From: Bacillota bacterium
Lineage (GTDB): Bacteria; Bacillota; Sulfobacillia; Sulfobacillales; Sulfobacillaceae
Length of the DNA stretch: 60,878 nt
Assembly (NCBI GenBank): GCA_021797825.1
Contig: JAJZZA010000011.1
Coordinates: 1-60,878 of the forward strand
Direction: 5' to 3'
Below are positions 17,781-56,864 of this stretch, in pieces. Below the pieces are notes generated by a model, which searched no databases, was not told where the DNA came from, and saw nothing but the letters and a program-made list of their open reading frames with translations. The position numbers and the translations under genes are program-made. The stretch's first letter is position 1, and each line of letters opens with the position of its first letter.

Positions 17781-18143
17781 CGACGGTCCACGATTCCAAC
17801 CGGCTCCAGCGCCGGGCCATCTCGCAACCCACGGCAACTGCCAAGGTCCTCGGTCAGTTCTGGCCACGGGATTGCTAAAGGCTTGCCTTGGTGTGACGAT
17901 TCCCCACGGCTAATCCCCGGGGGCAGATCACCCCAAGAAGTTTGAGCGGAGCGATGCGTGCACCGCATACCGGTCAGGCCACTTCCTAAGGTCTGCACGG
18001 CGGCTAAGCCGCTCATCGACGTTTCATAAAAGCCCGTTTGGCAAAACCGCGGCTTTATGAGACAATTTCGCTAAATATTGCTGAGCAAGAGATTGTCGCG
18101 CGATATTTCTGCGTGAGGAATGCAGATTGGGAGGACCTTAACC
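17781..18143. other. Intergenic with hairpin-forming repeat
   Basis: No gene is seen. At 18024-18060, TCATAAAAGCC and GGCTTTATGA form a long, slightly imperfect hairpin, with an inner GTTT/AAAC pair. It lies about 85 bases before the dehydrogenase start and could act in its leader or as an operator. There is no T-run, so it is not a standard terminator. Confidence 0.4.
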
Positions 18144-18914
18144 GTGCTCAATATCGACCTCCAGGGCAAACGTGCCCTGGTTACTGGAGCGAGTCGTGGC
18201 ATTGGCCATCAGATCCTGTTGACCCTGCTCGAAGCGGGGGCTTCTTGTGTAGGCGTGGCCCGCACGATCCCCGCTATGACCGGCTACGACAGACTGACAT
18301 TTGTCGCCGCCGATGTCAGCGCCGAATCTGATTTGGACCGTCTGCACGCATTTGTCGTCGACTCCTGGGGAACCTTGGACATCCTGGTAAACTGCGCCGG
18401 CTTTAATATTCGAGAACCGTTCACCGAAATCACTACGGAGCATTTTGAAGCCATTTTCCGCACCAATCTACGCGGTCCGTTTTTGATGATGAAAAAATTT
18501 TCCCCGCTGTTAAAAGAGAGTCAAGGCAGCATTATCAACATCACGTCGTTAGCATCGCATATCGGCAATCCCTACCAAGGCGCCTACGCCGCCTCAAAAG
18601 GCGGCCTGGCCCAGTTGACCAAAGTCGCCGCCACGGAACTGGGCCCCTACAATGTTCGGGTCAATGCCGTAAGCCCGGGATACATCGAAACCCCTTTGAC
18701 TCAACCCTTATGGACCGACCAGGAATTCCGCGACCGAATCGTATCCCACACGGCATTACGGCGCCTCGGTGCCCCCGAAGAGATTGCCAGCGTCGTCGCG
18801 TTCCTCGCATCGCCTCTCGCGCGCTTCATTACCGGCGAGGTGATTGTGGTGGACGGGGGTTATTTAAGCGGAGACCCGGTATTGATACCGTTTGGCAACC
18901 TTCCCAAACCATAA
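18144..18914 (+). CDS. Short-chain dehydrogenase/reductase
   Basis: A 256-residue NAD(P)-dependent oxidoreductase. The cofactor motif TGASRGIG is at residues 14-21, NAG-equivalent NCAG at 83-86, Ser135 or Ser138 and the Tyr148-x3-Lys152 pair of the active site. I chose the GTG at 18144, nine bases after GGGAGG; an in-frame ATG at 18120 has GAGGA directly against it. It faces the operon with dehydratase, reductase and aldehyde dehydrogenase across a shared terminator. A sugar or sugar-acid 1-dehydrogenase role, for example sulfoquinovose dehydrogenase, is possible but unproven. Confidence 0.85.
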   Translation: MLNIDLQGKRALVTGASRGIGHQILLTLLEAGASCVGVARTIPAMTGYDRLTFVAADVSAESDLDRLHAFVVDSWGTLDILVNCAGFNIREPFTEITTEHFEAIFRTNLRGPFLMMKKFSPLLKESQGSIINITSLASHIGNPYQGAYAASKGGLAQLTKVAATELGPYNVRVNAVSPGYIETPLTQPLWTDQEFRDRIVSHTALRRLGAPEEIASVVAFLASPLARFITGEVIVVDGGYLSGDPVLIPFGNLPKP

Positions 18915-18978
18915 CCGCGGACAGATTGCCTCTTTAGCAACCACCCAAAATCTCCGCCAGCGCGTCCCGCGCCAAAAG

Positions 18979-19011
18979 CGCTTTAGCCCCGGCCAACGCG
19001 GGGCTAAAGCG
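18979..19011. terminator. Hairpin between convergent genes
   Basis: A 12-base perfect stem (CGCTTTAGCCCC with its complement) and a nine-base loop lie between the SDR gene and the MFS gene, which converge. On the minus strand it is followed by CTTTTGG, so it probably ends at least the minus-strand operon. Confidence 0.65.
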
Positions 19012-19033
19012 TTCCGGACAATCTGCCGGGGAA

Positions 19034-20455
19034 TCAGTGCGACGGCTGCGCGGCCGCCAAAACGCTATCCAAATCCGCTTCTTCCTGTTCGATATCTTTG
19101 CCGGTGGGATCCCAGCGAATGGCCAGGGTTACCAGCAACCCGGTCAACGGCACAATGCCAATCAGCAGCAAGGTGTGCTGCAAACCAAAAATCGCCAACA
19201 CAATCGGGAAGAAATAAAACCCTAAGATGCTGCCCAGGCGAATGACGCCTTGGGTAAAGCCCGCTCCCACGCCGCGGATAACCGTCGGATACGAAAGCGC
19301 CCCCATGCTCATTCCGGATGATCCCTGCCCCATAGAATGCGCGGTAATAAACAAGGCGATAAAGAGCCCCATCACCAGCGCAGGCAGCACCTGTCCCAGC
19401 AGACCAATAGCCAGCAGCGCAATCAAGACCCCGCTATACCCGATGATCGCCAACCTGCGTATGCCCACCCGTTGCGTGACCTTCACGTTGATGCTGCCCC
19501 CGAGAATGCCAAACAAATTAAACACGGCCGACCCCAAAATCGCAAACAAAAACTTTTTGCCGAAAATCAACAGACTAATCGTCGGCAGATAAAATCCTAC
19601 CGCGAAATATTCCATGGATTGGGTGAACCCAATCACGGCCGCCAGGGTGGTGCGCGAACGGTAGCGCCGCGAAAACAGTTGCGCATACTCTTTAATCGAT
19701 GTTAATTGCGCCCGCACCGCTTGCTTCTCCGCTCCCGGAGCCACCACCGCGTCCACGCCGTAGGTTTCGCGCAGCACGCGCACCGCGCCCTTTAGATCTC
19801 CCTTGCTGGCGGCCCACATGGGACTTTCATCCATGTACATGTATCGCAGCGTCAACACCACCACCGCAGGCACCGCCCCGATGCCGACCGCCCACCGCCA
19901 CAAGTCAGGCCCCGCTCCCAAAAAATAAATCGGGATAATGATAATAAAACCGGTGGCCGCTGCCGTATACCACATAATCTGCCACATTTGCACGGATCGG
20001 GCTTTGCGTTGGGTGCCGGTATACTCCGCCACAAAACTGAGCGCGACCGGAAAATCCAAGCCGACGCCGACCCCCATGAAAAACCGGAAGATCAGCAAGA
20101 CCAGCAAATTGGGCGCAAAGGCGGCGGCAATCGCCGATACCACAAAAAACACCAAATCCAACATGAACATTTTTAGCCGACCCACCCGATCCACATAATA
20201 GCCGCCGATAAAGGCGGCAATCAGCGCCCCGAAGGCCATGGTCGCGGTCAGGCTCCCGAGTTGCAACGCGCTCAAATTAAACTGCTGCTTAAGTTGCACC
20301 GCGCCGATGCCCAGACTGGTAAAGTCATAGGCGTCGATGAAGGTCCCTCCCAAAGCAATGAGGATAATCATCCAACTCCGCGGGGTCACAATCGTACCGG
20401 AGTTGACCAGGTTGAACACATCCTGTTTGCTGCGGATAACCACTTGGTCGGCCAC
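19034..20455 (-). CDS. MFS transporter, sugar-acid/metabolite type
   Basis: A 473-residue carrier with 12 predicted helices. The loop 2-3 motif YYVDRVGRLK and the early FIDAYDFTSLGIG helix resemble proton symporters for organic acids and sugars. I chose the GTG at 20455 because AAGGAGGG lies seven bases before it; a longer frame has none. It is the last gene after the dehydratase, YihU-like reductase and aldehyde dehydrogenase genes, so it probably imports the substrate of that pathway or exports a product. Confidence 0.85.
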   Translation of the reverse strand: MADQVVIRSKQDVFNLVNSGTIVTPRSWMIILIALGGTFIDAYDFTSLGIGAVQLKQQFNLSALQLGSLTATMAFGALIAAFIGGYYVDRVGRLKMFMLDLVFFVVSAIAAAFAPNLLVLLIFRFFMGVGVGLDFPVALSFVAEYTGTQRKARSVQMWQIMWYTAAATGFIIIIPIYFLGAGPDLWRWAVGIGAVPAVVVLTLRYMYMDESPMWAASKGDLKGAVRVLRETYGVDAVVAPGAEKQAVRAQLTSIKEYAQLFSRRYRSRTTLAAVIGFTQSMEYFAVGFYLPTISLLIFGKKFLFAILGSAVFNLFGILGGSINVKVTQRVGIRRLAIIGYSGVLIALLAIGLLGQVLPALVMGLFIALFITAHSMGQGSSGMSMGALSYPTVIRGVGAGFTQGVIRLGSILGFYFFPIVLAIFGLQHTLLLIGIVPLTGLLVTLAIRWDPTGKDIEQEEADLDSVLAAAQPSH

Positions 20456-20614
20456 CCTTTTTCCCTCCTTAGTTATTGTCCCGGTGAACACGGATCGTGG
20501 CTGACCCGGCATACATCGCAAGCGGAAGTTCTCCATCTTGGGATCCCATCACGCTTGACGATACCCGGAAATCCCCGGGGCGGACTGGCGCTCTGCCGGA
20601 TATCCCTTCCCCTT

Positions 20615-22048
20615 TCATAGGCCAATGGACACAAATTTCCACTCGAGATAGTCGTCTAATCCCTGGTGGCCGCCTTCGCGACCAAAGCCGCTGTGTTTCA
20701 CTCCGCCAAACGGCGCTTGCACCACCGTGGGGACGGGATCGTTGACCCCAATGATCCCGTATTGCAGGCTTTCATACATCCGCACGACACGCCCGAGGTC
20801 GCGGCCGTAAAAATAGGCCGCCAGTCCGTAGGGCGTGTCATTCGCCCATTGCATCACCTCCTCATCGGTCTGATATTCCCATAGCCCCAGCAGGGGCCCG
20901 AAGGTCTCTTCTTGGGCAACCAACGCATCATGGGTGATGTCGGCCACTAGGGTCGGGGCATAGAACCATCCTGAGCCCGCATTTGGAATGACCACGCGTT
21001 GGCCACCGGTTATCACGCGGCCTCCCCGGGCAACCGCATCCCGCACTTGCCGCTCGACTTTTTCAACGGCGGAGTTATCGATCATGGGCCCAATATCCAC
21101 CGAGGGGTCAAAACCCGTGCCCACCTTGAGGTCGCGAACGCGGCGGGCCAGCCTTTGGGAAAATTCCTCGTAAATGGCGTGCTGAACGTACAGCCGATTG
21201 GCGCAGATGCAGGTTTGCCCGGCATTGCGAAATTTTGAGGCGACCACACCGGCTACCGCCAGTTCCAGGTCCGCATCGTCCATCACAATGAACGGGGCAT
21301 GCCCGCCCAATTCCAGGGAGAGCTTTTTCAAGTCCTGGGCAGCCCGCCGCATCAGGAGTTGCCCCACCTCGGTCGACCCGGTAAAGGAGAGCTTGCGCAC
21401 GGCCGGATTGGTTAAGAAGGCCTCCGCAATCGGTTCGGGCGGCCCCGCGATGATATTGACCACTCCTGACGGCATCCCCGCCTGTTCAAAAATTTGTCCC
21501 ATTTCGAGTGCCGAGAGCGGCGTCGTCTCCGCTGGTTTAATCACCACGGTGCAACCTGCCGCCAAAGCCGGAGAGACTTTACGCGCAATCATGGAGGCGG
21601 GAAAATTCCACGGGGTAATAGCGGCGACGACGCCCACCGGCTGCCGAATCGCCCAGAGCCGCTTGTTGGGAACTGATGCCGGGATCGTTTCTCCGTATAT
21701 CCTCTTGGCTTCTTCGCTGTTCCACTCGAAATAATCGGCCGACATCAAGATTTCGGCTTTTGCTTCCCGCAAGGGCTTGCCTTGCTCGGTGGTAAGAATT
21801 TCCGCCAGTCCTTGTGCCCGCGCACGAATGCGGTCGGCCACATTGCGCAGGATACGGGCGCGGTCTGGGGCGGGCATCGCCGACCAAGCGCGAAACGCGC
21901 GGGACGCGGCGTCGATGGCATCCTGGGCTTGCTGGATTCCCCCTTCGGCAACCGTGGCGATAACCTCGCCGGTAGCCGGATTGGTTACCGCCATGGTATT
22001 TTCGGTATCCACCCAGTTGCCATTAATCCACAGGCCGTAATGCTTCAT
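20615..22048 (-). CDS. NAD(P)-dependent aldehyde dehydrogenase (GabD-like)
   Basis: A 477-residue enzyme that oxidises a semialdehyde to an acid. Catalytic Cys280 (NAGQTCICANR), Glu246 (LELGGHAP) and Asn148 (TPWNFP) are all present. The best overall match is to succinate-semialdehyde dehydrogenases. In sulfo-Entner-Doudoroff bacteria a GabD-like enzyme oxidises sulfolactaldehyde to sulfolactate, and a sulfolactate-cleaving module lies 3 kb away, so this role is an attractive inference. Its ATG overlaps the stop of the reductase gene by four bases (ATGA). Confidence 0.9.
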   Translation of the reverse strand: MKHYGLWINGNWVDTENTMAVTNPATGEVIATVAEGGIQQAQDAIDAASRAFRAWSAMPAPDRARILRNVADRIRARAQGLAEILTTEQGKPLREAKAEILMSADYFEWNSEEAKRIYGETIPASVPNKRLWAIRQPVGVVAAITPWNFPASMIARKVSPALAAGCTVVIKPAETTPLSALEMGQIFEQAGMPSGVVNIIAGPPEPIAEAFLTNPAVRKLSFTGSTEVGQLLMRRAAQDLKKLSLELGGHAPFIVMDDADLELAVAGVVASKFRNAGQTCICANRLYVQHAIYEEFSQRLARRVRDLKVGTGFDPSVDIGPMIDNSAVEKVERQVRDAVARGGRVITGGQRVVIPNAGSGWFYAPTLVADITHDALVAQEETFGPLLGLWEYQTDEEVMQWANDTPYGLAAYFYGRDLGRVVRMYESLQYGIIGVNDPVPTVVQAPFGGVKHSGFGREGGHQGLDDYLEWKFVSIGL

Positions 22049-22917
22049 ATCGACACCCCTTCTTCCCCGGCCAATACTTTGAAGACCGCCGCCGTGTCCT
22101 CTTCGCCCCAACCACACCCTTGGACCGTTTGAAACAGCCGCAGCGATTCGGCCCCCAACGGCACGGGGACTGCGAGTTGCCGCGCGAGTTCCACCGCCAG
22201 CCGCAGATCTTTAACGGTCAGATTGACCGCAAAGCGCGGTGCATAATCCTGATGAACAATCCACGGACCTCTTAATTGCAGTTGATGGGAATTCGCTCCG
22301 GTATCCGCCAGCAACCGCACCAACAAATCGAGCGGAATCCCGGATTTGATCCCAAACGCCAACCCTTCCGCCAAAATAGCCATGTTGGTCATCCCGATAT
22401 GATTGCTAATCAGTTTGAATGCGGTGGACTGTTCTACTCCCCCCAGGTAATGCACGGGATCCCCGATTTCTTCCAGCAATGCTTTGCATCGCAAAAATAC
22501 CGCCTGATTACCTCCCGCAAATATCGGCTCCGTGCCTAGGGCCGCCTGAGCCGGTCCTTTGCCCAAGGGACAGGCGAGAAACTCATGACCCAAAGCGACC
22601 AGCCCGTCTTCCAATTGGCGGGCTGTCACCGGATCAATGGTACTCACATCGATGACGGTGGTGCCCGGCGGCAAGTGGGAAGCAATGCCCTGAGACCCAA
22701 ACAACAGTTGCGTGACGTCGGCGGGCAGGGGAAGGCTGGTAAAAAGCGTCGTCGCCTCGCTGGCAAGTTCCGCCACCGTCTTGCTGCCCTTGGCACCCGC
22801 CGCCACGAACTCTTGCACCACCTCCGGGCGAACATCATAGACGACAACTTCGTGATTTTTCAGCAGGTTTCGCGCCAGTCCCCCACCCATTTTTCCGAGA
22901 CCAACAAATCCAATCAT
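22045..22917 (-). CDS. Beta-hydroxyacid dehydrogenase, YihU-like
   Basis: A 290-residue NAD(P)-binding dehydrogenase of the 3-hydroxyisobutyrate dehydrogenase family. GLGKMGGGLARNL at residues 6-18 binds the cofactor, and Lys168-region KLISNH holds the catalytic lysine. The substrate loop reads CPLGKGPAQAALGTE, and the segment VPVPLGAES near the C-terminus recalls YihU, the sulfolactaldehyde reductase of E. coli. Tartronate-semialdehyde or lactaldehyde reduction are alternatives. It is coupled by ATGA to the aldehyde dehydrogenase gene, so one aldehyde could be either reduced or oxidised. Confidence 0.82.
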   Translation of the reverse strand: MIGFVGLGKMGGGLARNLLKNHEVVVYDVRPEVVQEFVAAGAKGSKTVAELASEATTLFTSLPLPADVTQLLFGSQGIASHLPPGTTVIDVSTIDPVTARQLEDGLVALGHEFLACPLGKGPAQAALGTEPIFAGGNQAVFLRCKALLEEIGDPVHYLGGVEQSTAFKLISNHIGMTNMAILAEGLAFGIKSGIPLDLLVRLLADTGANSHQLQLRGPWIVHQDYAPRFAVNLTVKDLRLAVELARQLAVPVPLGAESLRLFQTVQGCGWGEEDTAAVFKVLAGEEGVSI

Positions 22918-23045
22918 CCAATCCTCTCCTTATTGCTAATATTCCCGCTCTTTAAGCGACAGCGGAGTCTTCCCCACATGCCCGGCTTGCCGTCTTTCCT
23001 GCCCCCCAACAAAATGAACCGCTCCGTTTGAGGCGTCAAAGCCGG

Positions 23046-24194
23046 TTAATCAGGCGCCTCCCACGCCAACGGTTGGTGAAAGGGACGCAAATGCGGCGCA
23101 ACAAACCGCTCCAGTGCTTCGGGGTCAATTTCCAGCCCGAGGCCGGGCAGGCGATTCAAACGGGCCGTTCCACCGGCTAGCGTCCAACTCGGGGCGATGG
23201 CGTCTCGAACCAAATTTTCGTTGGTATCACATTCCACCCACCTTGCCCTGGCGGCCCAAGCCGACGCCACTTGCAGAGACAAGGCTTGGGCCACCGGTCC
23301 GCCCAATACATGAAACGCGACATAGCCCGCATCAAGCGCAGGCGACGCGATAAATTTTTCTGCAGCAGCGACCCCTCCAATTTTGCACAGGTCCGGCTGC
23401 ACGGCTTTTAGGCGGATGCTTGGGCTATGCGCAATTTGGTCAAGATACCAATTTTCCCCGGCCGCGAGCGATGGGGACTGCTGTCCCAGCAAGTGATACC
23501 CCGCGAAATCCAACGCTGAAATGGGCTCTTCTATCCATTTCGCCCCATAATTTTCGTAATACGCGATTTCGCTTAAGGCGCCCTCGCGCGTCCAGGCTTG
23601 ATTGGCATCGACGATGATCGCGTCTGCCCCGAGCAAAGACCGGGCGGTCTGGAAGTTTTGGTGGTCGACACCCTGATCAAAACCCACTTTGATTTTTACC
23701 GCGGTAAATCCCTGGGCAATGGCCGTCTCTATCCTGTCCTTTACCCGTTCCGGACCGATGCCACTGGCATAAACCGGAATCGCCGGCGACTGTTCGCCGC
23801 CCTCCCCCAACACGTCGCGCAGCGGTCTATGCCGCCTCCTCGCTTGCAGATCCCACAACGCGCCGTCGATCGCGCTGAGCGCATGGTAAAACGATCCCAA
23901 CCCGGCCGATTGCACGGCTTGCTTGCGATAGCGCGCAAGCACCGCGCCGACCGCGCCTGGCGCGGGCAATCCCGTTAATACGTCCGCCAAGAGATGGCGC
24001 AAGACCACCACCCGCTCATCTAGCGCCCACCGCGGGAAGTTCACCCACGATTCTCCCCACCCTTCGTACCCTTCGCCGTCGATTAGCTGCAGAAGAAGCA
24101 ATGGGCGATTTTGCATCGCGCCGAACGACGTGCGAATCGGATGTTTCAAGGGTGTCACCAGCGGCCAAATGACCGCTCTCGCGTCCCCGCTCAT
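23046..24194 (-). CDS. Enolase-superfamily sugar-acid dehydratase
   Basis: A 382-residue member of the mandelate racemase/muconate lactonizing group. The Lys167-x-Lys169 pair (AVKIKVGF), metal ligands Asp196 (VDANQAW), Glu222 or Glu223 (IEEPI) and Glu247 (AAGENW) are visible. Such enzymes dehydrate sugar acids or racemise small acids. It begins the operon with the reductase, aldehyde dehydrogenase and MFS genes. A 2-keto-3-deoxy acid would be its likely product. Gluconate-type, rhamnonate-type and 6-sulfogluconate substrates are all possible; the nearby sulfolactate genes favour the last, with modest weight. Confidence 0.83.
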   Translation of the reverse strand: MSGDARAVIWPLVTPLKHPIRTSFGAMQNRPLLLLQLIDGEGYEGWGESWVNFPRWALDERVVVLRHLLADVLTGLPAPGAVGAVLARYRKQAVQSAGLGSFYHALSAIDGALWDLQARRRHRPLRDVLGEGGEQSPAIPVYASGIGPERVKDRIETAIAQGFTAVKIKVGFDQGVDHQNFQTARSLLGADAIIVDANQAWTREGALSEIAYYENYGAKWIEEPISALDFAGYHLLGQQSPSLAAGENWYLDQIAHSPSIRLKAVQPDLCKIGGVAAAEKFIASPALDAGYVAFHVLGGPVAQALSLQVASAWAARARWVECDTNENLVRDAIAPSWTLAGGTARLNRLPGLGLEIDPEALERFVAPHLRPFHQPLAWEAPD

Positions 24195-25110: not shown

Positions 25111-26268
25111 TCATGAGCTGCGATAGAGTTTGGTCAGCACAAACTCCTTGTGGCCCAACACCTCGGTCGCCGTCAGGCGCCCGTTCAGGTTGCGGACCAT
25201 CATGTCGACCAGCGCCTGTCCCGCTTGCGCCAACGTCATCTCCAAGGACAAGAGCCCGGAAATGTCCACGTCGATGTGCTCCGCCATGAGCTGGGCGGTG
25301 CGGGGATTCGCTGTGGTCTTTAGCACCGGCACCACCGGATTGCCCACAATGTTGCCTTGGCCGGTGGTAAAGAAATGAAACACCGACCCCGCCGCCCCCA
25401 TCAGCGTAATGAATTCCGCAGCCGCCGACGACGAGTCCATGAAATTAAGCCCCTTTTGCGTGGGCGCGGCGGCCGGTGCCAGGGCATCGACAATGGGGCT
25501 CGTCCCGGTCTTCTGAATGTTGCCCAAGGCCTTTTCCTCAATCGTGCTGAGCCCCCCCGCGATGTTCCCCTGCGTCGGCTGCGAGCCCAGCAAGTCGACC
25601 CCTTGCGACCGGACTAACTGCTGGTAATTCTCGTGCATCGCCAGGTAGCGGGCCCGCACCGCGTCGTTGCGGCAGCGCCCCGCGATGATGTGCTCCGCCC
25701 CGGTAATTTCCGTCGTCTCCCCAAAAATGACAGTGGCACCCTGGTCCACCAGCCAATCCACGGCCACCCCCACCGCCGGATTCGACCCCAGCCCGGAGGT
25801 GGTATCCGATTCCCCGCATTTCGTGCTGAAGATGGCGTCCGCAATCGGCACCTCTTCCCGGCGCAATTCCGAGGCATAGTATAAGTAGTCCCGGGCTTGC
25901 CGCACGGCGCTGGCGATGGTCGCGGTGTCGCCCTGCCCCTCGATGGAAAATCCGCGGACGGGCTTGCCCGTCTCGGCAATGCCCTGCACCACCCGGTTGG
26001 TCCAGTTGGGCTCAATGCCGATAACCACCACCGCGGCGATGTTGGCGTTCTGGCCGGTGCCGATCAGCGTCCGAAAGTGCAAGTCCAAATCCTCGCCGAA
26101 CTGCAGTCGGCCGTAGGGATGCGGCAACGGCAGGGTCCCCGGCGCCAGATGCGCCACCCCTTCCACGGCCGCGTTGGAGAGGTCGTCGACGGGGAGAATC
26201 GCCACATAATTGCGCGAACCCACCGCCCCATTCGCCCGGCGATAGCCCCAAAACGTCTGCTGGGCCAT
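25111..26268 (-). CDS. suyB: UxaA-family lyase large subunit, SuyB-like
   Basis: A 385-residue protein matching the C-terminal (large) part of the altronate/galactarate dehydratase family. Family segments include FWGYRRANGAVGSRNYVAI at the N-terminus, STKCGESDTTSG (about residues 150-161), NIAGGLSTIEEKALGNI and FTTGQGNIVGNP. A separate small SAF subunit is encoded one base upstream. The split into about 10 and 40 kDa subunits and the two flanking sulfolactate-type dehydrogenases fit (2R)-sulfolactate sulfo-lyase, which yields pyruvate and sulfite. Altronate or another hydroxyacid is the alternative; no hexuronate genes are near. Confidence 0.72.
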   Translation of the reverse strand: MAQQTFWGYRRANGAVGSRNYVAILPVDDLSNAAVEGVAHLAPGTLPLPHPYGRLQFGEDLDLHFRTLIGTGQNANIAAVVVIGIEPNWTNRVVQGIAETGKPVRGFSIEGQGDTATIASAVRQARDYLYYASELRREEVPIADAIFSTKCGESDTTSGLGSNPAVGVAVDWLVDQGATVIFGETTEITGAEHIIAGRCRNDAVRARYLAMHENYQQLVRSQGVDLLGSQPTQGNIAGGLSTIEEKALGNIQKTGTSPIVDALAPAAAPTQKGLNFMDSSSAAAEFITLMGAAGSVFHFFTTGQGNIVGNPVVPVLKTTANPRTAQLMAEHIDVDISGLLSLEMTLAQAGQALVDMMVRNLNGRLTATEVLGHKEFVLTKLYRSS

Positions 26269-26269
26269 G

Positions 26270-26554
26270 TTATCCCCACCTCACACTCTTAATGTTGTGC
26301 ACATGCACATGCTCACCCGCTGCAATGGGCTGGGTGGCGACCCCGATCACTTCGCCGTATTCGATGACCGTGTCCCCGGTCTGTAACTCCCGCAAGGCTA
26401 CTTTGTGGCCCAGCGGCACGGCGTCGCGCACCGTGATCCGGGTTTCCTGCAAAGACAGTTGGTAAACGCCGGTCACGGTCTCCCCCGGTTTCAGATCCCG
26501 CACCGCTACCCCGACCTGATCACGGTCGGCATGAATCAACAATCCATGGGCCAT
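26270..26554 (-). CDS. suyA: UxaA-family lyase small SAF subunit, SuyA-like
   Basis: A 94-residue SAF-domain protein equal to the N-terminal domain of altronate dehydratase. The end PIAAGEHVHVHNIKS is characteristic. It would pair with the large subunit encoded one base downstream to form an iron-dependent lyase. In known sulfolactate degraders SuyA is a separate protein of about this size. AAAGGGGG precedes the ATG. Its own promoter and an operator lie immediately upstream, so it can be switched apart from the dehydrogenase genes. Confidence 0.72.
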   Translation of the reverse strand: MAHGLLIHADRDQVGVAVRDLKPGETVTGVYQLSLQETRITVRDAVPLGHKVALRELQTGDTVIEYGEVIGVATQPIAAGEHVHVHNIKSVRWG

Positions 26555-26570
26555 GCCTCTTCCCCCTTTA

Positions 26571-26589
26571 GGTATGTGGTCATACCACC
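26571..26589. promoter_or_regulatory. Operator upstream of suyAB
   Basis: The core TGGTCATACCA at 26577-26587 fits the FadR-type consensus TNGTNNNACNA, inside a larger repeat in which GGTATG (26571-26576) and CATACC (26581-26586) flank TGGT. The reverse strand reads GGTGGTATGACCA, and 12 of those 13 bases recur before the hydroxyacid dehydrogenase gene at 29571-29583. It lies between the -10 box and the suyA ribosome-binding site. Confidence 0.62.
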
Positions 26590-26596
26590 TACTTCA

Positions 26597-26625
26597 ACTA
26601 TCCTCCCCCTCCGACCGCTTGTCAA
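26597..26625 (-). promoter_or_regulatory. Promoter of suyAB
   Basis: On the minus strand a perfect TTGACA and a GATAGT box are 17 bases apart, about 45 bases before the suyA start. The operator follows directly downstream of the -10 box, a position that suits a repressor. Confidence 0.55.
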
Positions 26626-26638
26626 GCGTTTTCGGCGT

Positions 26639-27358
26639 TTACGGCGGAGAGGTCAGCGATCCCAGCACCGCCTGTTCCACCCCGCTCAAATGTGCCATCA
26701 TCGCTGCCGCGGCCGCGGCCGCGTCCCCCGCTAAAATGGCCTCGGCAATTTGTTCATGGTCCAATATGGACTGCCACGCCCGCCCCGGGATGGCCAAACT
26801 CTGCTGGCGGACCTCCTGCAAAAGATCCAGCAGATTGGTCATCAACCGCCCCGCAATGGGATTGCCCGAGGCGATGATCAGCGCCGTGTGAAAGGCTTGA
26901 TCCGACAATGCCGCAGCCCCAAAATCCGCGAGACCGGCGGAAGTCACATGGCCTTTGACGTCATGCACCAGGGCCACCAACTCTTCTCTTTGCGCCAACG
27001 GCGCGCGGACTGCAGCCCACCCCGCGGCGGCCGTTTCCAACGTCTTGCGCACTTCAAATAATGCGGCCACGGTGTCGGGTTTCACCACCAACGGCGCCCA
27101 CAGCGCATTGCCCATCGCGATGCCTTCATCGCCTTGAATGAAGATCCCTTTCCCGTGTTGAATCGACAACACACCTAACCCGACCAGAGTCCGCAACGCA
27201 TCGCGCACCGTCGTCCGGCTGACGTTAAAAGCGATCGCCAAGTCGCGCTCCGTCGGCAACCGATCCCCAACCGTGAGCGTGCCTTCCTCAATCTTGGCGA
27301 GAATACCTTGCACGATTTGATCGCGCAACGAGAGATTCTGCGCTATTGGCCGAAACAT
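26639..27358 (-). CDS. GntR-family regulator (FadR subfamily), SuyR-like
   Basis: A 239-residue regulator. The winged helix spans about residues 12-75 (ERDLAIAFNVSRTTVRDALRTL), followed by an FCD-type helical domain with FHTALIIASGN and the DHEQIAEAI segment. I chose the ATG at 27358, seven bases after GGAGGG. It is encoded between the ComC-like and SuyA-like genes and is the natural candidate to bind the shared operator in front of both transcription units. The inducer is probably sulfolactate or sulfopyruvate, by inference from the enzymes. Confidence 0.87.
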   Translation of the reverse strand: MFRPIAQNLSLRDQIVQGILAKIEEGTLTVGDRLPTERDLAIAFNVSRTTVRDALRTLVGLGVLSIQHGKGIFIQGDEGIAMGNALWAPLVVKPDTVAALFEVRKTLETAAAGWAAVRAPLAQREELVALVHDVKGHVTSAGLADFGAAALSDQAFHTALIIASGNPIAGRLMTNLLDLLQEVRQQSLAIPGRAWQSILDHEQIAEAILAGDAAAAAAAMMAHLSGVEQAVLGSLTSPP

Positions 27359-27466
27359 CGTTTGGCCCTCCTGATTGAGCCGTTCCATCCCCTGTTTTCC
27401 GCATTCCCCACGTTATCTCTTCGGCAAGGCACGGCCTGTTTGCTCCTGAGTATGCACGAATCGGCT

Positions 27467-28540
27467 TCAATCCGAAAGGGGCGGCACGCCCAACCGGTCG
27501 GCTAACGCCTGGAGTTGCTCCTGCAACGGGCGGTCGAGGGGAATCCCGTCGACCAGGTACCGCCCACGATGCGCCTCGCTGCGGTCGCCCGGCAGCGTGA
27601 TCGGCTCCGGGCGGGCCGGCGGAATCGCCCGCACAGCCGTCTCCATCGCCTCGAACCGGTCAAAAAACTCGGTCCCCGGAAGCAGCCAGGTGGGGTTCAT
27701 GACCCAGAAGAAATGTCCGACGTTGCTCGGCCCCGAGCTATCGGTGTAGGGATTGCGCACAGACGGGCCAACCCCCGCCCCCGATAAGACGCCCGCCAAG
27801 ATCTCCACCGCCAGCGCCAACGCGGACCCCTTGGCGCCGCCCATCGGCAGCACGGCGCCCGCCAGCGCGGCGTGGGCGTCGGTGGTGGGCTCTCCTTCGC
27901 TGTCGATCGCCCAACCCAGGGGAATCGGCTGATCCAATCGCGCCGCCTCGATAATGTGCCCGCGCGCGACCACCGACGTCGACAGATCAATGATCAGGGG
28001 GGGGTGTCCGGGACGGCGGGGAAAGCCCCAGGCGATGGGATTGGTGCCAAAAAACGCCGCCCGGCCACCCCAGGGGGCGATGCCCGGGGGCGTGTTGGTC
28101 AGCGCCAGCACAATCAATCCGCGACGGGCTGCTTCCATACAATACACGCTTAAGGCGCCACAGTGATTTGACTGGGACACCGAGACCATCCCCATGCCGT
28201 ATTGCTCCGCCAGCGCGATCGCCTTTTCGGTTGCGCGCCACGCCACCACCGGTCCCAATCCGTTGCCCCCGGCGAGATGGACCAGGGAGGGCTGGCGCTG
28301 TTCCCAGCGCAGGGCCGGTTGGGTGGCGATGAGCTGCTGCTCGATCCGGGCCACATAGACAGGCAGACGGCTGACACCATGGGTATGGCGGCCGGTGAGG
28401 TCGGCGTCCACCAGCACGCGGGCGGTGATGGCCGCGTCCGCTTCGGGCACCCCCAGCCGGGACAGGACTCGCCCGATAAATTGCCCGAGCTCGGCCGCGG
28501 TGGTCCGCGGAGTGCTCCCCGCATCTTCGCATGAAACCAT
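27467..28540 (-). CDS. comC: Ldh2-family dehydrogenase, ComC-like
   Basis: A 357-residue NAD(P)-dependent dehydrogenase of the malate/L-lactate/sulfolactate family, which is unrelated to classical LDH. HTHGVSRLPVYVARIE near residues 50-65 carries the family His, and later segments SNHCGALSVYCMEAA, PWGGRAAFFGTNPIAWGFP and MGGAKGSALALAVEIL are typical. In sulfolactate degraders ComC oxidises (R)-sulfolactate and SlcC the (S)-form; together they racemise it through sulfopyruvate. GGGGAGG precedes the chosen ATG at 28540. It follows the SlcC-like gene by 44 bases. Confidence 0.82.
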   Translation of the reverse strand: MVSCEDAGSTPRTTAAELGQFIGRVLSRLGVPEADAAITARVLVDADLTGRHTHGVSRLPVYVARIEQQLIATQPALRWEQRQPSLVHLAGGNGLGPVVAWRATEKAIALAEQYGMGMVSVSQSNHCGALSVYCMEAARRGLIVLALTNTPPGIAPWGGRAAFFGTNPIAWGFPRRPGHPPLIIDLSTSVVARGHIIEAARLDQPIPLGWAIDSEGEPTTDAHAALAGAVLPMGGAKGSALALAVEILAGVLSGAGVGPSVRNPYTDSSGPSNVGHFFWVMNPTWLLPGTEFFDRFEAMETAVRAIPPARPEPITLPGDRSEAHRGRYLVDGIPLDRPLQEQLQALADRLGVPPLSD

Positions 28541-28584
28541 CGGATTCCTCCCCTTCAACACCCGGTCGCACGCCCCGTCGCGAT

Positions 28585-29535
28585 TCATCCGCAGACGGAA
28601 GCCAACGGGGCCTGTCCGCGCAATACCCGCAAGACATCGTCCGCCACCATCTCTGCGGTGCGCACGTTCGCCTCGCTGGAAAGACCCGCGATATGCGGCG
28701 TCAGCAGAATGCGCGGGTGATGGCACAACGGATCGGATGGGCTTGGCGGTTCCATTTCCCGCACGTCAAGCGCCGCCCCCGCTATCTTTTCGGTTTCGAT
28801 ACTGGCCAATAAGGCGGTTTCATCGATGACCCCGCCGCGCGCGGTGTTGATCAAATAACTGCCGGTTTTCATCTGCGCCAACGTTTGGCGGTTGAGCAGG
28901 TGGCGTGTTGTCTCGGTGAGCGGGAGGTGCACACTTACAAAATCGGCGGTGGCCAACAGCTGTGGCAGGGTGGTTAGCGTCACGCCCAGATCCGCGACGG
29001 CCAGCTGGGTCGGCAATTGCCACGGGTCGTAAGCCAGGATGGTCATGCCAAAACTTTTCGCCCGCCAGGCGACGCGCTGTGCGATATCGCCCAGGCCAAG
29101 CAGGCCGAGAACTTTGCCGTGCAATTCTTTTCCGCCCAGCGTGCGATCCCACCGTCCCTGACGCACGGTCTCGCCCACCCCGGTCAGATCCCGGGTAAAA
29201 TGCAACAGACAGGTCAGAACATATTCGGCCACCGCCGTGGCATTGGCCCCCCGGGCCACCACGAGTGGAATATGCCGGGCACGCACGGCGTCCAGGTCTA
29301 TGTTGTCGAGTCCCACGCCCAGTCTCCCAACCACCTTCAGCGCGGCGGCGCGCTGAATCAATGAGGCGGTAACCCGGGTTTGATTGCGCACCACCAGCGC
29401 ATCCGCCGCAACAATTTGTTCGCTGAGGATATCCGCTGATTCCCACGCCTTGGGGTCGTACCGCACCTCAGCGGCTTGCCGCAACCGATCCAGTCCGGCG
29501 CGATCCATTATTTCCGAGACCACGATGATCGCCAG
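28585..29535 (-). CDS. slcC: D-2-hydroxyacid dehydrogenase, SlcC-like
   Basis: A 316-residue NAD-dependent dehydrogenase. The cofactor motif GLGDIAQR is near residues 147-154, and Arg233 (NTARGG), Glu262 and His281 (TPHIAG) form the catalytic trio of this family. I propose a CTG start at 29535, nine bases after AAGGGGG; a GTG at 29523 is possible, while an upstream TTG at 29613 lies inside the promoter. With the ComC-like enzyme it would convert (S)-sulfolactate to the (R)-form used by SuyAB. Without that context it could only be called a PGDH-like enzyme. Confidence 0.8.
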   Translation of the reverse strand: MAIIVVSEIMDRAGLDRLRQAAEVRYDPKAWESADILSEQIVAADALVVRNQTRVTASLIQRAAALKVVGRLGVGLDNIDLDAVRARHIPLVVARGANATAVAEYVLTCLLHFTRDLTGVGETVRQGRWDRTLGGKELHGKVLGLLGLGDIAQRVAWRAKSFGMTILAYDPWQLPTQLAVADLGVTLTTLPQLLATADFVSVHLPLTETTRHLLNRQTLAQMKTGSYLINTARGGVIDETALLASIETEKIAGAALDVREMEPPSPSDPLCHHPRILLTPHIAGLSSEANVRTAEMVADDVLRVLRGQAPLASVCG

Positions 29536-29570
29536 GACCTCGCACCCCCTTCGCCCCCCGACATAAGATA

Positions 29571-29583
29571 GGAGGTATGACCA
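29571..29583. promoter_or_regulatory. Second copy of the sulfolactate-module operator
   Basis: GGAGGTATGACCA matches 12 of 13 bases of the site in front of suyAB (read on its reverse strand). It begins immediately downstream of the -10 box of the hydroxyacid dehydrogenase promoter, so the same GntR protein probably represses both. Confidence 0.6.
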
Positions 29584-29584
29584 A

Positions 29585-29613
29585 TTTATATCATCGAATC
29601 GTGAGGTTGGCAA
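29585..29613 (-). promoter_or_regulatory. Promoter of the dehydrogenase genes
   Basis: On the minus strand TTGCCA and TATAAA are exactly 17 bases apart, about 50 bases before the proposed start of the hydroxyacid dehydrogenase gene. Confidence 0.62.
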
Positions 29614-53140: not shown

Positions 53141-54442
53141 TTAGGAATGGGTTTCCGACAGGGATGCAGAAGATTCGCCGAGACTTTGGGGAACGTCGTA
53201 ATGGCGCATAATCAGATACGCCGAGGCGAGCAAGACGAGAGGCACCAAGCTTATCAAGAAGCGAAACCCGAATTGCACCAGAGGCGTGGCGGAGGCCGCC
53301 GCGTTGGCCTGAAATCCCGTGTCGTGCAGGGTCATGTACAGCAGCCAGGCTTGCACGGAAACCCCCAAACGCAACACGAATCCGTTAATTCCATAGAATA
53401 TCCCCTCCCGGCGGAGGGTGCTGGCGCGCGCGTCGTGGTCGATCACTTCGGCCATCAGGACATCGGCCAAAATGAGAAACCCGCCCAACCCGACCCCCAA
53501 CATCACGGCAGCGACGAATAGCACGGCCAGCGAATGCGTCCAGAGAAAGGGGGTCAATCCCAGCATGAGCCAGAAAATGGTCCAGCTTAGCGACCGATGC
53601 GAACCGTGCCGTCTGATGTACCCGGTCCAAGGCAGAATCACCAGAAACGCGGTGACAAAGATGCTCGCCAAAAGTAAAGAGAGGCCAACTGGCGACACGC
53701 GCACGACGTATTTGGCATAAAACGGCAGAACGGCGGGAACAAGTCCCAAGGTGAGCTGCACAAGAAAATTCATCGCCAAAAAACGGCGAAACCCCGCGAA
53801 TCGCCTAACCAGTTGCAGCCCCTCCCACAAAGACCAAGGCGGCGATGCGGCTGCCGACCGGGGATTTTCCCGCGAACCGCGCAACGAGGCCAGGAATCCG
53901 CCGGTGCCGACCACCGCCAATATCGCGGCCATCGCCGTCCATCCCCAGCGGCTATAGAGCACCGGCGGCAGCGCCACCCCAATCATGAGCGCCGCCACCC
54001 CCACCATTTGCCGGGGCAATTGCGCCTGCGTACGTTCTTTAAGGGTCGGGAACATTTCGGGGAATAAACTGGTCCAGTTAAGCACCACGGCTAAATATAT
54101 CAGATCAAACAAGAGAACCATGACCAGAAAATACGGCGCCAGCCAGGCGTGCGGGACCAACGGGTGCCAGAGCAGAAAAAATACGATCCCCAGCGGAAGA
54201 CTAAGTCCGGCAATATACGGGATCCGGCGTCCCAACGCGGTGTGCGTGCGGTCGGACAGTTGACCAATGGCGGGGTTTAGCAACGCGTGCCAGACGCTTT
54301 GCATCGTCATGGCGATGGTAATCGCGCCCAGCGGAGCGTGCAGATGATCGATATAGAAAAACAAAATGAAGGTGGCGAAGGCTTGACTGAAAATGTTGGC
54401 CCCCAGATTGCCAAAAGCGTACCAACCCGCTCTAACTTTCAT
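53141..54442 (-). CDS. GPH-family sugar:cation symporter (YihO/YihP-like)
   Basis: A 433-residue carrier with 12 helices of the glycoside-pentoside-hexuronide family. The N-terminal YAFGNLGANIFSQAFATFIL and the loop QLSDRTHTALGRRIPYIAG are characteristic. ATG 54442 follows GGGAGGACAAC and overlaps the glycosidase gene by 11 bases, so the two are coupled. E. coli pairs GPH carriers (YihO, YihP) with the sulfoquinovosidase YihQ, and the partner here is YihQ-like. Other alpha-glycosides cannot be excluded. Confidence 0.85.
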   Translation of the reverse strand: MKVRAGWYAFGNLGANIFSQAFATFILFFYIDHLHAPLGAITIAMTMQSVWHALLNPAIGQLSDRTHTALGRRIPYIAGLSLPLGIVFFLLWHPLVPHAWLAPYFLVMVLLFDLIYLAVVLNWTSLFPEMFPTLKERTQAQLPRQMVGVAALMIGVALPPVLYSRWGWTAMAAILAVVGTGGFLASLRGSRENPRSAAASPPWSLWEGLQLVRRFAGFRRFLAMNFLVQLTLGLVPAVLPFYAKYVVRVSPVGLSLLLASIFVTAFLVILPWTGYIRRHGSHRSLSWTIFWLMLGLTPFLWTHSLAVLFVAAVMLGVGLGGFLILADVLMAEVIDHDARASTLRREGIFYGINGFVLRLGVSVQAWLLYMTLHDTGFQANAAASATPLVQFGFRFLISLVPLVLLASAYLIMRHYDVPQSLGESSASLSETHS

Positions 54443-56864
54443 GTTGTCCTCCCGACGAACGCGAGCCAGGCCAAAACCGCAGGATATAACGCTTGAAAGC
54501 ACAGTCCGCGGACGTATTCAGTTGGACCCAGCCATCCGCCAGGGCAAGCCGGATCGATTGCCCAGGACCGAGTTCGACGCTGCGCGAGACTGTCACCCGC
54601 TGGGGGAGATGGCTGGCAAAAGTGGGCAGTGCGACAGATGAACCGGACACGTCCGGATTCCGTGCCGGCTGATAGCTTATCGTCAGCACACCCCCGTCAA
54701 TCAGGAAAATGCGCGCGTCAAAAGGAACCTCCCCGCAACTGCCATATAGCGCCAAATAGGGCAGGGCCTCCTCTAAAGCGACCCCCGGTCCGTCGACAAT
54801 GGGCAGGCAGGAGTCGACCAAACCTTCCATCCGCCCCTGCTTAGGAATCCCTTCCAACAACGGCACCACCTGGAGGTCCCGCAGGAACAGGGGAAGACGG
54901 TCCAACGGCACCGCTTGGGCAATCCACCCTGGCCCCTGATAGACCTGGCCGGTCCACCAACTGCGCCAACGGCCGACGGGAAGATAGAACCGGTGGCGCG
55001 ATCTGCGGCGGGTGGTGACCGGCGCCGCCAAGAGCCCGTCACCAATCATAAATTGCTGGTCGATGGTCCAGGCGGTTTGATCATCGGGGAATTGGAGATA
55101 AAGCGGGCGAATGATCGGGATGCCTTGTTGAGCGGTGTGCAGCAGATGCTGAAAGTAGGGATAGAGACTGGCATGAAGGCGGGCGTAACGGGTATAGACC
55201 TCAAGGGTTTCGTCATCTTTGTCAAACCGCCAGTTGCGGGGCGCGGCGGTTCCATGATGAGTCCGCATAATAGGCAACACGGCGGCCAGTTGCAGCCATC
55301 GCCAGAAAAGCGCTTTCGTGGCGGGCCGGGTCAGTCCGAAGGTCATGTAACCCGCAATATCGGTCGCCCAGTAGAAAAACCCGGCGGTTTGAGCGGACAG
55401 CACTTGCGGAATGACCGTAGGGAGACCATCGCCCGCTTCAAAATCGGTGTCGGAGTCTCCCCCCCAAACCACCGGCGCGAGCGCATGGCTCCCAATCCAG
55501 CCCGAACGGACAAAAAACAGCCAGTCGTCGTCGCGGCCCCGGTCCTCCCCAAACCTGGCGTTGGCCTGTTGCCACAGCAAAGGGTAGCGGTTGTGGGATT
55601 GCCATCCGGTGCTGCCGTCAGCCAACCGCGCGCGGACCGGCAGGTATTCCCCGAAATCCGCCATCCATCCGTCAAATCCCCGATCGCAAGCCGGTCCCAG
55701 CAGGTTGTTGGCTGCCCAGTCCTGGGCCTTAGGATGGGTAAAATCAATTTGCCCATGTTGGATCCCCAGAATGTTGATCAGCAGGGGCAGGCCCTGACGG
55801 TCTTTAACCAGCACCCCGGATCGCTTGGCGCTATCAAATAACGCGCTGTCGGCCGTGATTTCAGGACAAAGATAGCCTAACAGACGGTATCCTTGGCGAT
55901 GCAGTTCCGCAGACAAACCTTTTAGATCAGGATAGAGCGCGGTATCGACCCGATGGCTAAGCGGTCTCATCCAAAATCGCCGGCGATTTTGCCAGGATCC
56001 CATCCAGTCCTCGATCCAAATGACAGCGGAGGGGATCCGGTGGTTGCGCAATGACCGCGCCAGCGACATCGCCGCGGTCTCGCCTTGGATGCTGTCGTTC
56101 CAAGGAAAGAACGCCCACTTGGGAGGAGATTTGGGAGGACCCAGCACCTGAAATTGGCGACGGAAAATTTCTTCCGGGGAGCAACCGGCCACAACATGCA
56201 AGACCGTGCGGGAGTCCCAAATGGTGCCGCTGCGGGTACGCGGGGCAAGTCGCCAGCGAATCAGCGCAAACGAATCGAACCATGCGCTGTAGCCTTGAGA
56301 GCTCAACCAAAGCGGCAACGACGCGTATGAGGGGTAGGGGCCTTTGGGAAACGGAGCGAACGGATACTTATTGACCAGGAACGACAGCGGTCCGAATCCG
56401 ACCGGGCCTTCTTCTACCCAGCTGTCAAAACGTGCCGGCGGCATTATCGTACGACCGTGCTCGCCAAATCCCACCCACCGTTCTTGCTCCGAAGTCTGCC
56501 AGACAATTTTTAGAAAGCTTAAAGCCGAGGACGTCTGGCAAGCGATGGTCATGTGCCAGGGATCCGGCAAGTCGAGGTCGAGGGTGATTTCGACAGCGGC
56601 CACTGCGGAGGAGAGCACGATGCGCCCGTGGGCCGACGAACGGTTTACCACTCTCCAAGCGGTCATCGGGTACACGTGCCGGGGTGAATAACGGAAAAAA
56701 TCCCATGCCAGCCAGTGCCTGACAGACACCGGACCGGGGTCGATCACGGCCAGTTGCGCCAGCGCGATCTGCATGAGCGGACGTTGCCGGTAAAGAATTT
56801 GCAAGGAGGCCGTCGCGTCGTCAATTTGCCACTGCATTTGGCCCGAATGGTCCTCGCCCCTCAT
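54432..56864 (-). CDS. GH31 alpha-glycosidase, sulfoquinovosidase-like
   Basis: An 810-residue GH31 enzyme, longer than E. coli YihQ (678). The nucleophile motif GWMADFGEYLP places Asp403 as nucleophile, close to Asp405 of YihQ, and the same motif occurs there. Asp474 in GGDSDTDFEAGDGL fits the acid/base. VIWIEDWMG is followed by RRRFW at 294-298, whose Arg-x-x-Trp pair (295, 298) matches the sulfonate-binding Arg301/Trp304 of YihQ, and Tyr506 (TDIAGY) may correspond to Tyr508. I chose ATG 56864 after AAGGTGG. It should release sulfoquinovose from its glycosides, but this comparison is from memory. Confidence 0.82.
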   Translation of the reverse strand: MRGEDHSGQMQWQIDDATASLQILYRQRPLMQIALAQLAVIDPGPVSVRHWLAWDFFRYSPRHVYPMTAWRVVNRSSAHGRIVLSSAVAAVEITLDLDLPDPWHMTIACQTSSALSFLKIVWQTSEQERWVGFGEHGRTIMPPARFDSWVEEGPVGFGPLSFLVNKYPFAPFPKGPYPSYASLPLWLSSQGYSAWFDSFALIRWRLAPRTRSGTIWDSRTVLHVVAGCSPEEIFRRQFQVLGPPKSPPKWAFFPWNDSIQGETAAMSLARSLRNHRIPSAVIWIEDWMGSWQNRRRFWMRPLSHRVDTALYPDLKGLSAELHRQGYRLLGYLCPEITADSALFDSAKRSGVLVKDRQGLPLLINILGIQHGQIDFTHPKAQDWAANNLLGPACDRGFDGWMADFGEYLPVRARLADGSTGWQSHNRYPLLWQQANARFGEDRGRDDDWLFFVRSGWIGSHALAPVVWGGDSDTDFEAGDGLPTVIPQVLSAQTAGFFYWATDIAGYMTFGLTRPATKALFWRWLQLAAVLPIMRTHHGTAAPRNWRFDKDDETLEVYTRYARLHASLYPYFQHLLHTAQQGIPIIRPLYLQFPDDQTAWTIDQQFMIGDGLLAAPVTTRRRSRHRFYLPVGRWRSWWTGQVYQGPGWIAQAVPLDRLPLFLRDLQVVPLLEGIPKQGRMEGLVDSCLPIVDGPGVALEEALPYLALYGSCGEVPFDARIFLIDGGVLTISYQPARNPDVSGSSVALPTFASHLPQRVTVSRSVELGPGQSIRLALADGWVQLNTSADCAFKRYILRFWPGSRSSGGQHES

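Follow-up and report, generated by a model that had tools for sequence, protein, structure and literature searches.

What does an α-glycosidase that resembles the sulfoquinovosidases act on, and what does the carrier encoded next to it bring into the cell? This question is raised by a gene pair on a 60,878-nucleotide contig of a Bacillota bacterium of the Sulfobacillaceae (JAJZZA010000011.1, assembly GCA_021797825.1)—the whole of which is referred to as the window. The pair encodes an enzyme of glycoside hydrolase family 31 (GH31) and, directly behind it on the same strand, a symporter of the GPH family. A first-pass annotation had read it as a system for the uptake and hydrolysis of glycosides of sulfoquinovose (SQ), the sugar of plant sulfolipid. 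We find that the pair is a real, selected, and stand-alone two-gene cassette. Its enzyme is placed beside the sulfoquinovosidases (SQases) and not among them. The reading that we favor, and that we hold to be right or wrong with about equal chance, is a cytosolic retaining α-glycosidase of a new clade with its own GPH symporter, most likely acting on a neutral α-glycoside and not on a sulfoquinovoside.

The gene pair and its conservation

The 810-residue GH31 protein bears both the TIM-barrel and the C-terminal domain of its family, each above the Pfam cut-off (PF01055, 163.8 bits; PF21365, 85.4 bits). Asp403—the Asp of the WMADFGEYLP motif—aligns with Asp405 of Escherichia coli YihQ, and Asp470 falls on Asp472, the acid/base residue of YihQ. 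Both the nucleophile (Asp403) and the acid/base (Asp470) are invariant in the orthologs. Motif, residue numbers, and gene layout had thus been given correctly by the first-pass annotation, including the overlap of the two genes: with the carrier starting at ATG 54442 and the GH31 stop ending at 54432, it amounts to 11 nt. An alternative GTG start of the carrier at 54502 would extend it to 71 nt.

The window belongs to a metagenome-assembled genome (MAG) of the Sulfobacillus family (3.59 Mb, 156 contigs, 97.5% complete). GH31 orthologs are found in 28 of 34 genomes of the same family and in two genomes of a sister family. Among named genomes, orthologs are carried by Sulfobacillus benefaciens, S. 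thermotolerans, S. acidophilus, and S. harzensis, and further ones by related Bacillota MAGs. Of 20 loci whose flanks are readable, 17 have the carrier behind the GH31 gene in the same orientation, mostly overlapping it or at most about 35 nt away. The carrier is missing in three loci (L045–L047) and apparently broken in two others (L035, L036). The remaining neighbors vary from genus to genus, and none resembles a yih gene. It is this recurrence of the ortholog, with the carrier adjoining it, that marks the pair as a conserved cassette. In two of the loci without an adjacent GPH carrier (L045, L046), the GH31 gene is preceded by a cation/proton antiporter-like gene.

In the genome of S. thermotolerans Kr1, a gene is labeled yihQ/alpha-glucosidase by automatic homology, with no activity reported (PMC6803676); the same genome encodes an ortholog that is 53% identical to the window enzyme (locus L056).

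Phylogeny and predicted fold

Among solved structures, the enzyme is closest in sequence to SQases from Agrobacterium, E. coli, B. megaterium, and E. rectale. The predicted structure points the same way. An AlphaFold model built on a 54-sequence alignment has a mean pLDDT (predicted local distance difference test) of 92.9; it was used instead of a model from an 11-sequence alignment, whose key loops had a pLDDT below 50. In a fold comparison, the four SQases score best (TM-score on target 0.90–0.91, VIA Z about 40), followed by YicI and other GH31 enzymes (Z about 35). This closeness speaks for a rival explanation in which the enzyme is itself an SQase: SQ glycosides would enter via the GPH carrier and be cut to SQ, which would be degraded by an unrecognised route—perhaps through a sulfolactate operon on the same window. 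We regard this explanation as possible but doubtful.

Against it stands the maximum-likelihood tree. The Sulfobacillia sequences form one clade (SH-aLRT, the SH-like approximate likelihood ratio test, 99) that is joined to a myxobacterial clade (92), while all SQases fall into a separate clade with a long stem (support 100) that leaves the window enzyme outside. Hence, the enzyme is placed as a sister of the SQases and not as a member. Its score of 370 bits with the NCBIfam model PRK10426/NF007746—the YihQ family, named alpha-glucosidase—lies below the equivalog cut-off of 553.

The comparison with characterized systems can be drawn along the same lines. With the SQases YihQ, AtSQase, SftG of E. 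rectale, and BmSQase of B. megaterium, the enzyme shares the GH31 fold, the catalytic pair, the WMADFGEYLP motif, an aligned Arg-x-x-Trp, and a Tyr; it differs from them by an identity of only about 25–30%, a clade of its own, a three-residue deletion, the loss of an RxTxFG segment, and the lack of SQ genes alongside. The GH31 proteins of the sister clade (from Minicystis rosea and deltaproteobacterial MAGs) are 32–36% identical across most of the protein and bear Arg-x-x-Glu instead of Arg-x-x-Trp, with the Arg kept in five of six and Glu in the place of Trp. No GPH gene was found near these myxobacterial homologs. YicI has the WGGD motif at the acid/base in common with the window enzyme, but is 25% identical, belongs to another GH31 branch, and has a different loop after the EDW strand.

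The sulfonate site

Work by Speciale in 2016 and by Abayakoon in 2018 is said to have established that Arg301, Trp304, and Tyr508 of YihQ bind the sulfonate, with Gln262 and Gln288 close by. Using YihQ numbering verified against the E. coli sequence, Arg295 of the window enzyme falls on Arg301 and Trp298 on Trp304 in both MAFFT and profile–profile alignments, with the three-residue deletion just upstream. The Arg-x-x-Trp pair at 295/298 proposed by the first-pass annotation therefore exists and aligns, and no other residue stands at either position of the window protein itself.

Across the clade, the pair is less constant. Among the 30 orthologs compared at this site, Arg295 and Trp298 occur together in 23. 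Position 295 is otherwise Gln (3/30) or Lys (2/30), and position 298 is Trp in 28, with Ile or Val in the two sister-family sequences. Tyr506, at the position of Tyr508, is present in 30 of 30, but a Tyr is also found in some non-SQase GH31 enzymes, making it a weak marker. The equivalent of YihQ residue 288 is Glu285 in all orthologs, and that of residue 262 is Arg, Gln, or Gly; SQases bear either Gln/Gln or Lys/Glu at 262/288, and Glu285 aligns with the Glu of the Agrobacterium-type site. The alignment of Arg295, Trp298, Tyr506, and Glu285 with these residues argues for an SQase, and the exchanges at 295 (five of 30) and 298 (two of 30) argue against one. A similar variation is seen in two Bacillota SQase homologs that are about 52% identical to YihQ: one (L093) has Gln at the position of Arg301, the other (L094) Tyr at that of Trp304 and Phe at that of Tyr508. 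Near-SQases hence also vary there.

The surrounding loop differs more clearly. In the profile alignment, all eight SQases share Arg294, Thr296, Phe298, Gly299, and Trp306 (YihQ numbering), and none of these is kept in the window clade: the segment RxTxFG (YihQ Arg294–Gly299), invariant in SQases, is gone. The clade bears its own invariant residues instead—Ser290, Arg296, Phe297, Arg300, Pro301, Leu302, and His304. All 30 orthologs, which span two families, keep Arg296, Arg300, and His304, including those in which Arg295 or Trp298 differ. The gap in the alignment cannot be placed with certainty, and a sulfonate Arg, should one exist, might therefore be Arg296 instead of Arg295. The SQase explanation might gain from this, as Arg296 (30/30) and Trp298 (28/30) are better conserved than Arg295.

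The same three residues give rise to a further explanation, in which a rebuilt cationic loop of Arg296, Arg300, and His304 would bind another anionic α-glycoside, e.g., a sulfofucoside or the glycoside of a uronic acid. Their invariance speaks for it, but the Arg and His residues may as well be structural, and we consider this explanation improbable. Also unlikely in our view is the notion that the clade comprises new α-glycosidases for a sulfonated sugar, with a sulfonate pocket rebuilt around Arg296, Arg300, and His304 together with Trp298.

The carrier

The carrier matches PF13347 with 180 bits, above the cut-off, and TIGR00792 with 134 bits, below the cut-off of 231. The first-pass annotation had assigned it to the family of YihO and YihP, which is correct only in the wide sense of the GPH superfamily. 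A specific likeness to these two was not found: in BLAST against six E. coli GPH carriers, MelB (70 bits), UidB (58), and YagG (57)—the best matches, with 20–24% identity—and YicJ (45) all score above YihP (34) and YihO (33.5). This low rank counts against an SQase function of the pair. The pairing as such is not diagnostic of SQ either, because yicJ–yicI of E. coli is likewise an adjacent pair of GPH and GH31 genes that bears no link to SQ.

At the positions of the MelB cation-site residues Asp55 and Asp59, the window carrier has His and Asn, as does every ortholog that covers this stretch. These His and Asn sites are fully conserved among the carrier orthologs, within a motif WHAxLNP. The exchange may mark proton coupling in acidophiles, which appears plausible since protons would be the abundant ion for such an organism.

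Search for a sulfoquinovose pathway

An SQase would be expected to feed a pathway. In the 97.5% complete window genome, no AGE-family isomerase (YihS), SftI-type isomerase, SsuD/SmoC-type monooxygenase, or TauD-type dioxygenase was found. YihT and DUF4867 gave no match in this genome either, in searches that both lacked a positive control. The only HpcH/HpaI-family protein of the genome adjoins a CitE/MaoC/acyl-CoA ligase context. Matches to Xsc were discarded as generic thiamine diphosphate enzymes below the cut-off. Beside the pair itself, none of 21 cassette loci has a yih-like isomerase, kinase/aldolase, dehydrogenase, or monooxygenase; a generic YihU-like dehydrogenase in the window lies 30 kb away. 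As a control, five loci of true SQases from the same phylum (49–54% identical to YihQ) bear a class II aldolase, a pyrophosphate-dependent phosphofructokinase, or an SftI-type isomerase within a few genes. By these sequence searches, the known SQ pathways are probably missing from the window genome.

Across the relatives, the GH31 gene and SftI-type isomerases do not track each other (7/14/0/2, p = 1). SftI-like isomerases are found in seven relatives, in clusters with sulfatases that lie away from the GH31–GPH pair and, hence, do not support an SQ role of the pair. Six of these clusters (L126, L127, L129, L130, L131, and L132, from relatives G006, G012, G015, G005, G014, and G009) bear, varying by genome, a class II aldolase, an FGGY-type kinase, an ROK regulator, sulfatases, and, in L129, an α-L-rhamnosidase; two of them (L126, L129) adjoin SuyA–SuyB–SlcC–ComC. 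They possibly represent an undescribed pathway for a sulfosugar or a sulfated deoxysugar.

A probable sulfolactate operon of the window

About 25 kb from the pair, the window bears an operon in the order SlcC–ComC–GntR–SuyA–SuyB (29613..25111, minus strand; Table 1). Its ComC-like Ldh_2 protein has L-sulfolactate dehydrogenase as its best NCBIfam model (255 bits, below the cut-off of 500). SuyB is 62% identical to a UxaA-type SuyB that lies beside hpsN, hpsO, and suyA on a plasmid of Cupriavidus pinatubonensis, the species to which the hpsRNOUPsuyAB cluster belongs (PMC11382572). In Sinorhizobium mexicanum—named as a carrier of the SlcC/ComC–SuyAB system (PMC12421959)—homologs of SuyA, SuyB, SlcC, and ComC stand in a row with 48, 63, 43, and 37% identity. 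The operon is thus a probable SlcC/ComC–SuyAB route, predicted to turn sulfolactate into pyruvate and sulfite.

The presence of this operon is a point for an SQase, which could feed it. GH31 presence, however, does not track SuyB: SuyB is found at 77% identity or more in 16 of the 34 same-family genomes (GH31 against SuyB 13/15/3/3, Fisher p = 1). In the complete genome G003, they are 457 kb apart.

The operon also bears on the other anionic glycosides. A sulfofucose pathway ends in SlcC/ComC–SuyAB and includes a PF13378/PF02746 dehydratase (PMC12421959), and the window has both; a sulfofucosidase is not known (PMC12421959). On the other side, the PF13378/PF02746 protein of the window is only 25% identical over 292 residues to the most similar stretch of the S. 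mexicanum cluster, its closest plasmid-borne relatives (36%) belong to the generic mandelate racemase/muconate cyclase proteins, and neither a dedicated aldolase nor a dedicated lactonase was found. That the window encodes a sulfofucose pathway, composed of the MR_MLE dehydratase and SlcC/ComC–SuyAB, was rejected as unproven on account of the 25% identity.

Positions 18120–24194 of the window encode an SDR dehydrogenase, an MFS transporter, an aldehyde dehydrogenase, a YihU-like β-hydroxyacid dehydrogenase (32% identical to YihU, with L-threonate dehydrogenase as best NCBIfam model), and an enolase-superfamily dehydratase. Perhaps, these genes supply the sulfolactate operon through a pathway for a sugar acid or a C3 sulfonate.

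Table 1. Positions of the gene pair and of the sulfolactate operon in the window
Feature	Position	Strand	Remarks
GH31 α-glycosidase, 810 aa	54432..56864	−	start codon ATG at 56864, stop codon ends at 54432; D403, D470
Listed GH31 residues			E285, R295, W298, Y506: aligned sulfonate-site positions; R296, R300, H304: clade-invariant
GPH/MFS_2 symporter, 433 aa	53141..54442	−	best start ATG 54442
Overlap of GH31 stop and carrier ATG, 11 nt	54432..54442	−	putative translational coupling
D-2-hydroxyacid dehydrogenase, SlcC-like	28585..29613	−	first gene of the operon; outside the gene pair
Ldh_2-family dehydrogenase, ComC-like	27467..28726	−	not part of the pair
GntR/FCD regulator	26639..27388	−	inside the sulfolactate operon; outside the gene pair
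SAF-domain small subunit, SuyA-like, 94 aa	26270..26554	−	not part of the pair
Large subunit (GD_AH) of a (2R)-sulfolactate sulfo-lyase, SuyB-like	25111..26268	−	not part of the pair

Proposed function

Because its clade lies outside the SQases, the RxTxFG segment is lost, and the genome yielded none of the markers sought for the known SQ pathways, the enzyme is probably not a classical SQase. Uptake and hydrolysis of SQ glycosides, as first annotated, is supported in its framework—a GH31 enzyme with the SQases nearest in sequence and fold, an aligned Arg/Trp pair, and a conserved carrier–hydrolase cassette—and not supported as to its substrate, given the placement outside the SQase clade, the variation to Lys or Gln and to Ile or Val, the missing Arg294–Gly299 segment, the missing pathway markers, and a carrier without specific likeness to YihO/YihP.

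For the neutral α-glycoside that we favor instead, the following mechanism can be proposed. The GPH symporter would import a small α-glycoside into the cytosol, probably together with protons. The GH31 enzyme would cleave it there by a retaining double displacement with Asp403 as nucleophile and Asp470 as acid/base, and the sugar released might enter central metabolism. The clade would have an ancestor in common with the SQases and have had its sulfonate-holding loop rebuilt, and the natural substrate would most likely be an ordinary neutral α-glycoside, e.g., an α-glucoside disaccharide.

Several points weigh against this proposal. The neutral substrate is not named by any direct evidence, and every characterized near relative, by sequence as well as by fold, is an SQase. 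Arg295 and Trp298 do fall on the sulfonate pair in most orthologs, with Tyr506 and Glu285 invariant. The absent markers are also compatible with an SQ pathway of an unrecognised kind, which is possible. Finally, the sulfolactate operon makes it more likely that these bacteria meet C3 sulfonates, although it gives no link between these compounds and the GH31 pair.

Implications

GH31 genes of Sulfobacillus are labeled yihQ, and SQase genes serve as metagenome markers of sulfosugar degradation. SQase counts in metagenomes could hence come out too high if they include a sister clade that has neither the SQase loop nor SQ genes. If, on the contrary, the clade acts on a sulfonated sugar, extreme acidophiles would reach the sulfosugar glycosides of algae or of archaeal cell surfaces, and strains with SlcC–ComC–SuyAB would free the sulfonate sulfur as sulfite. 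Sulfolactate desulfonation is indicated in these acidophiles, and the enzyme and its carrier form a well-defined pair that is core to this family of acid-loving mine bacteria.

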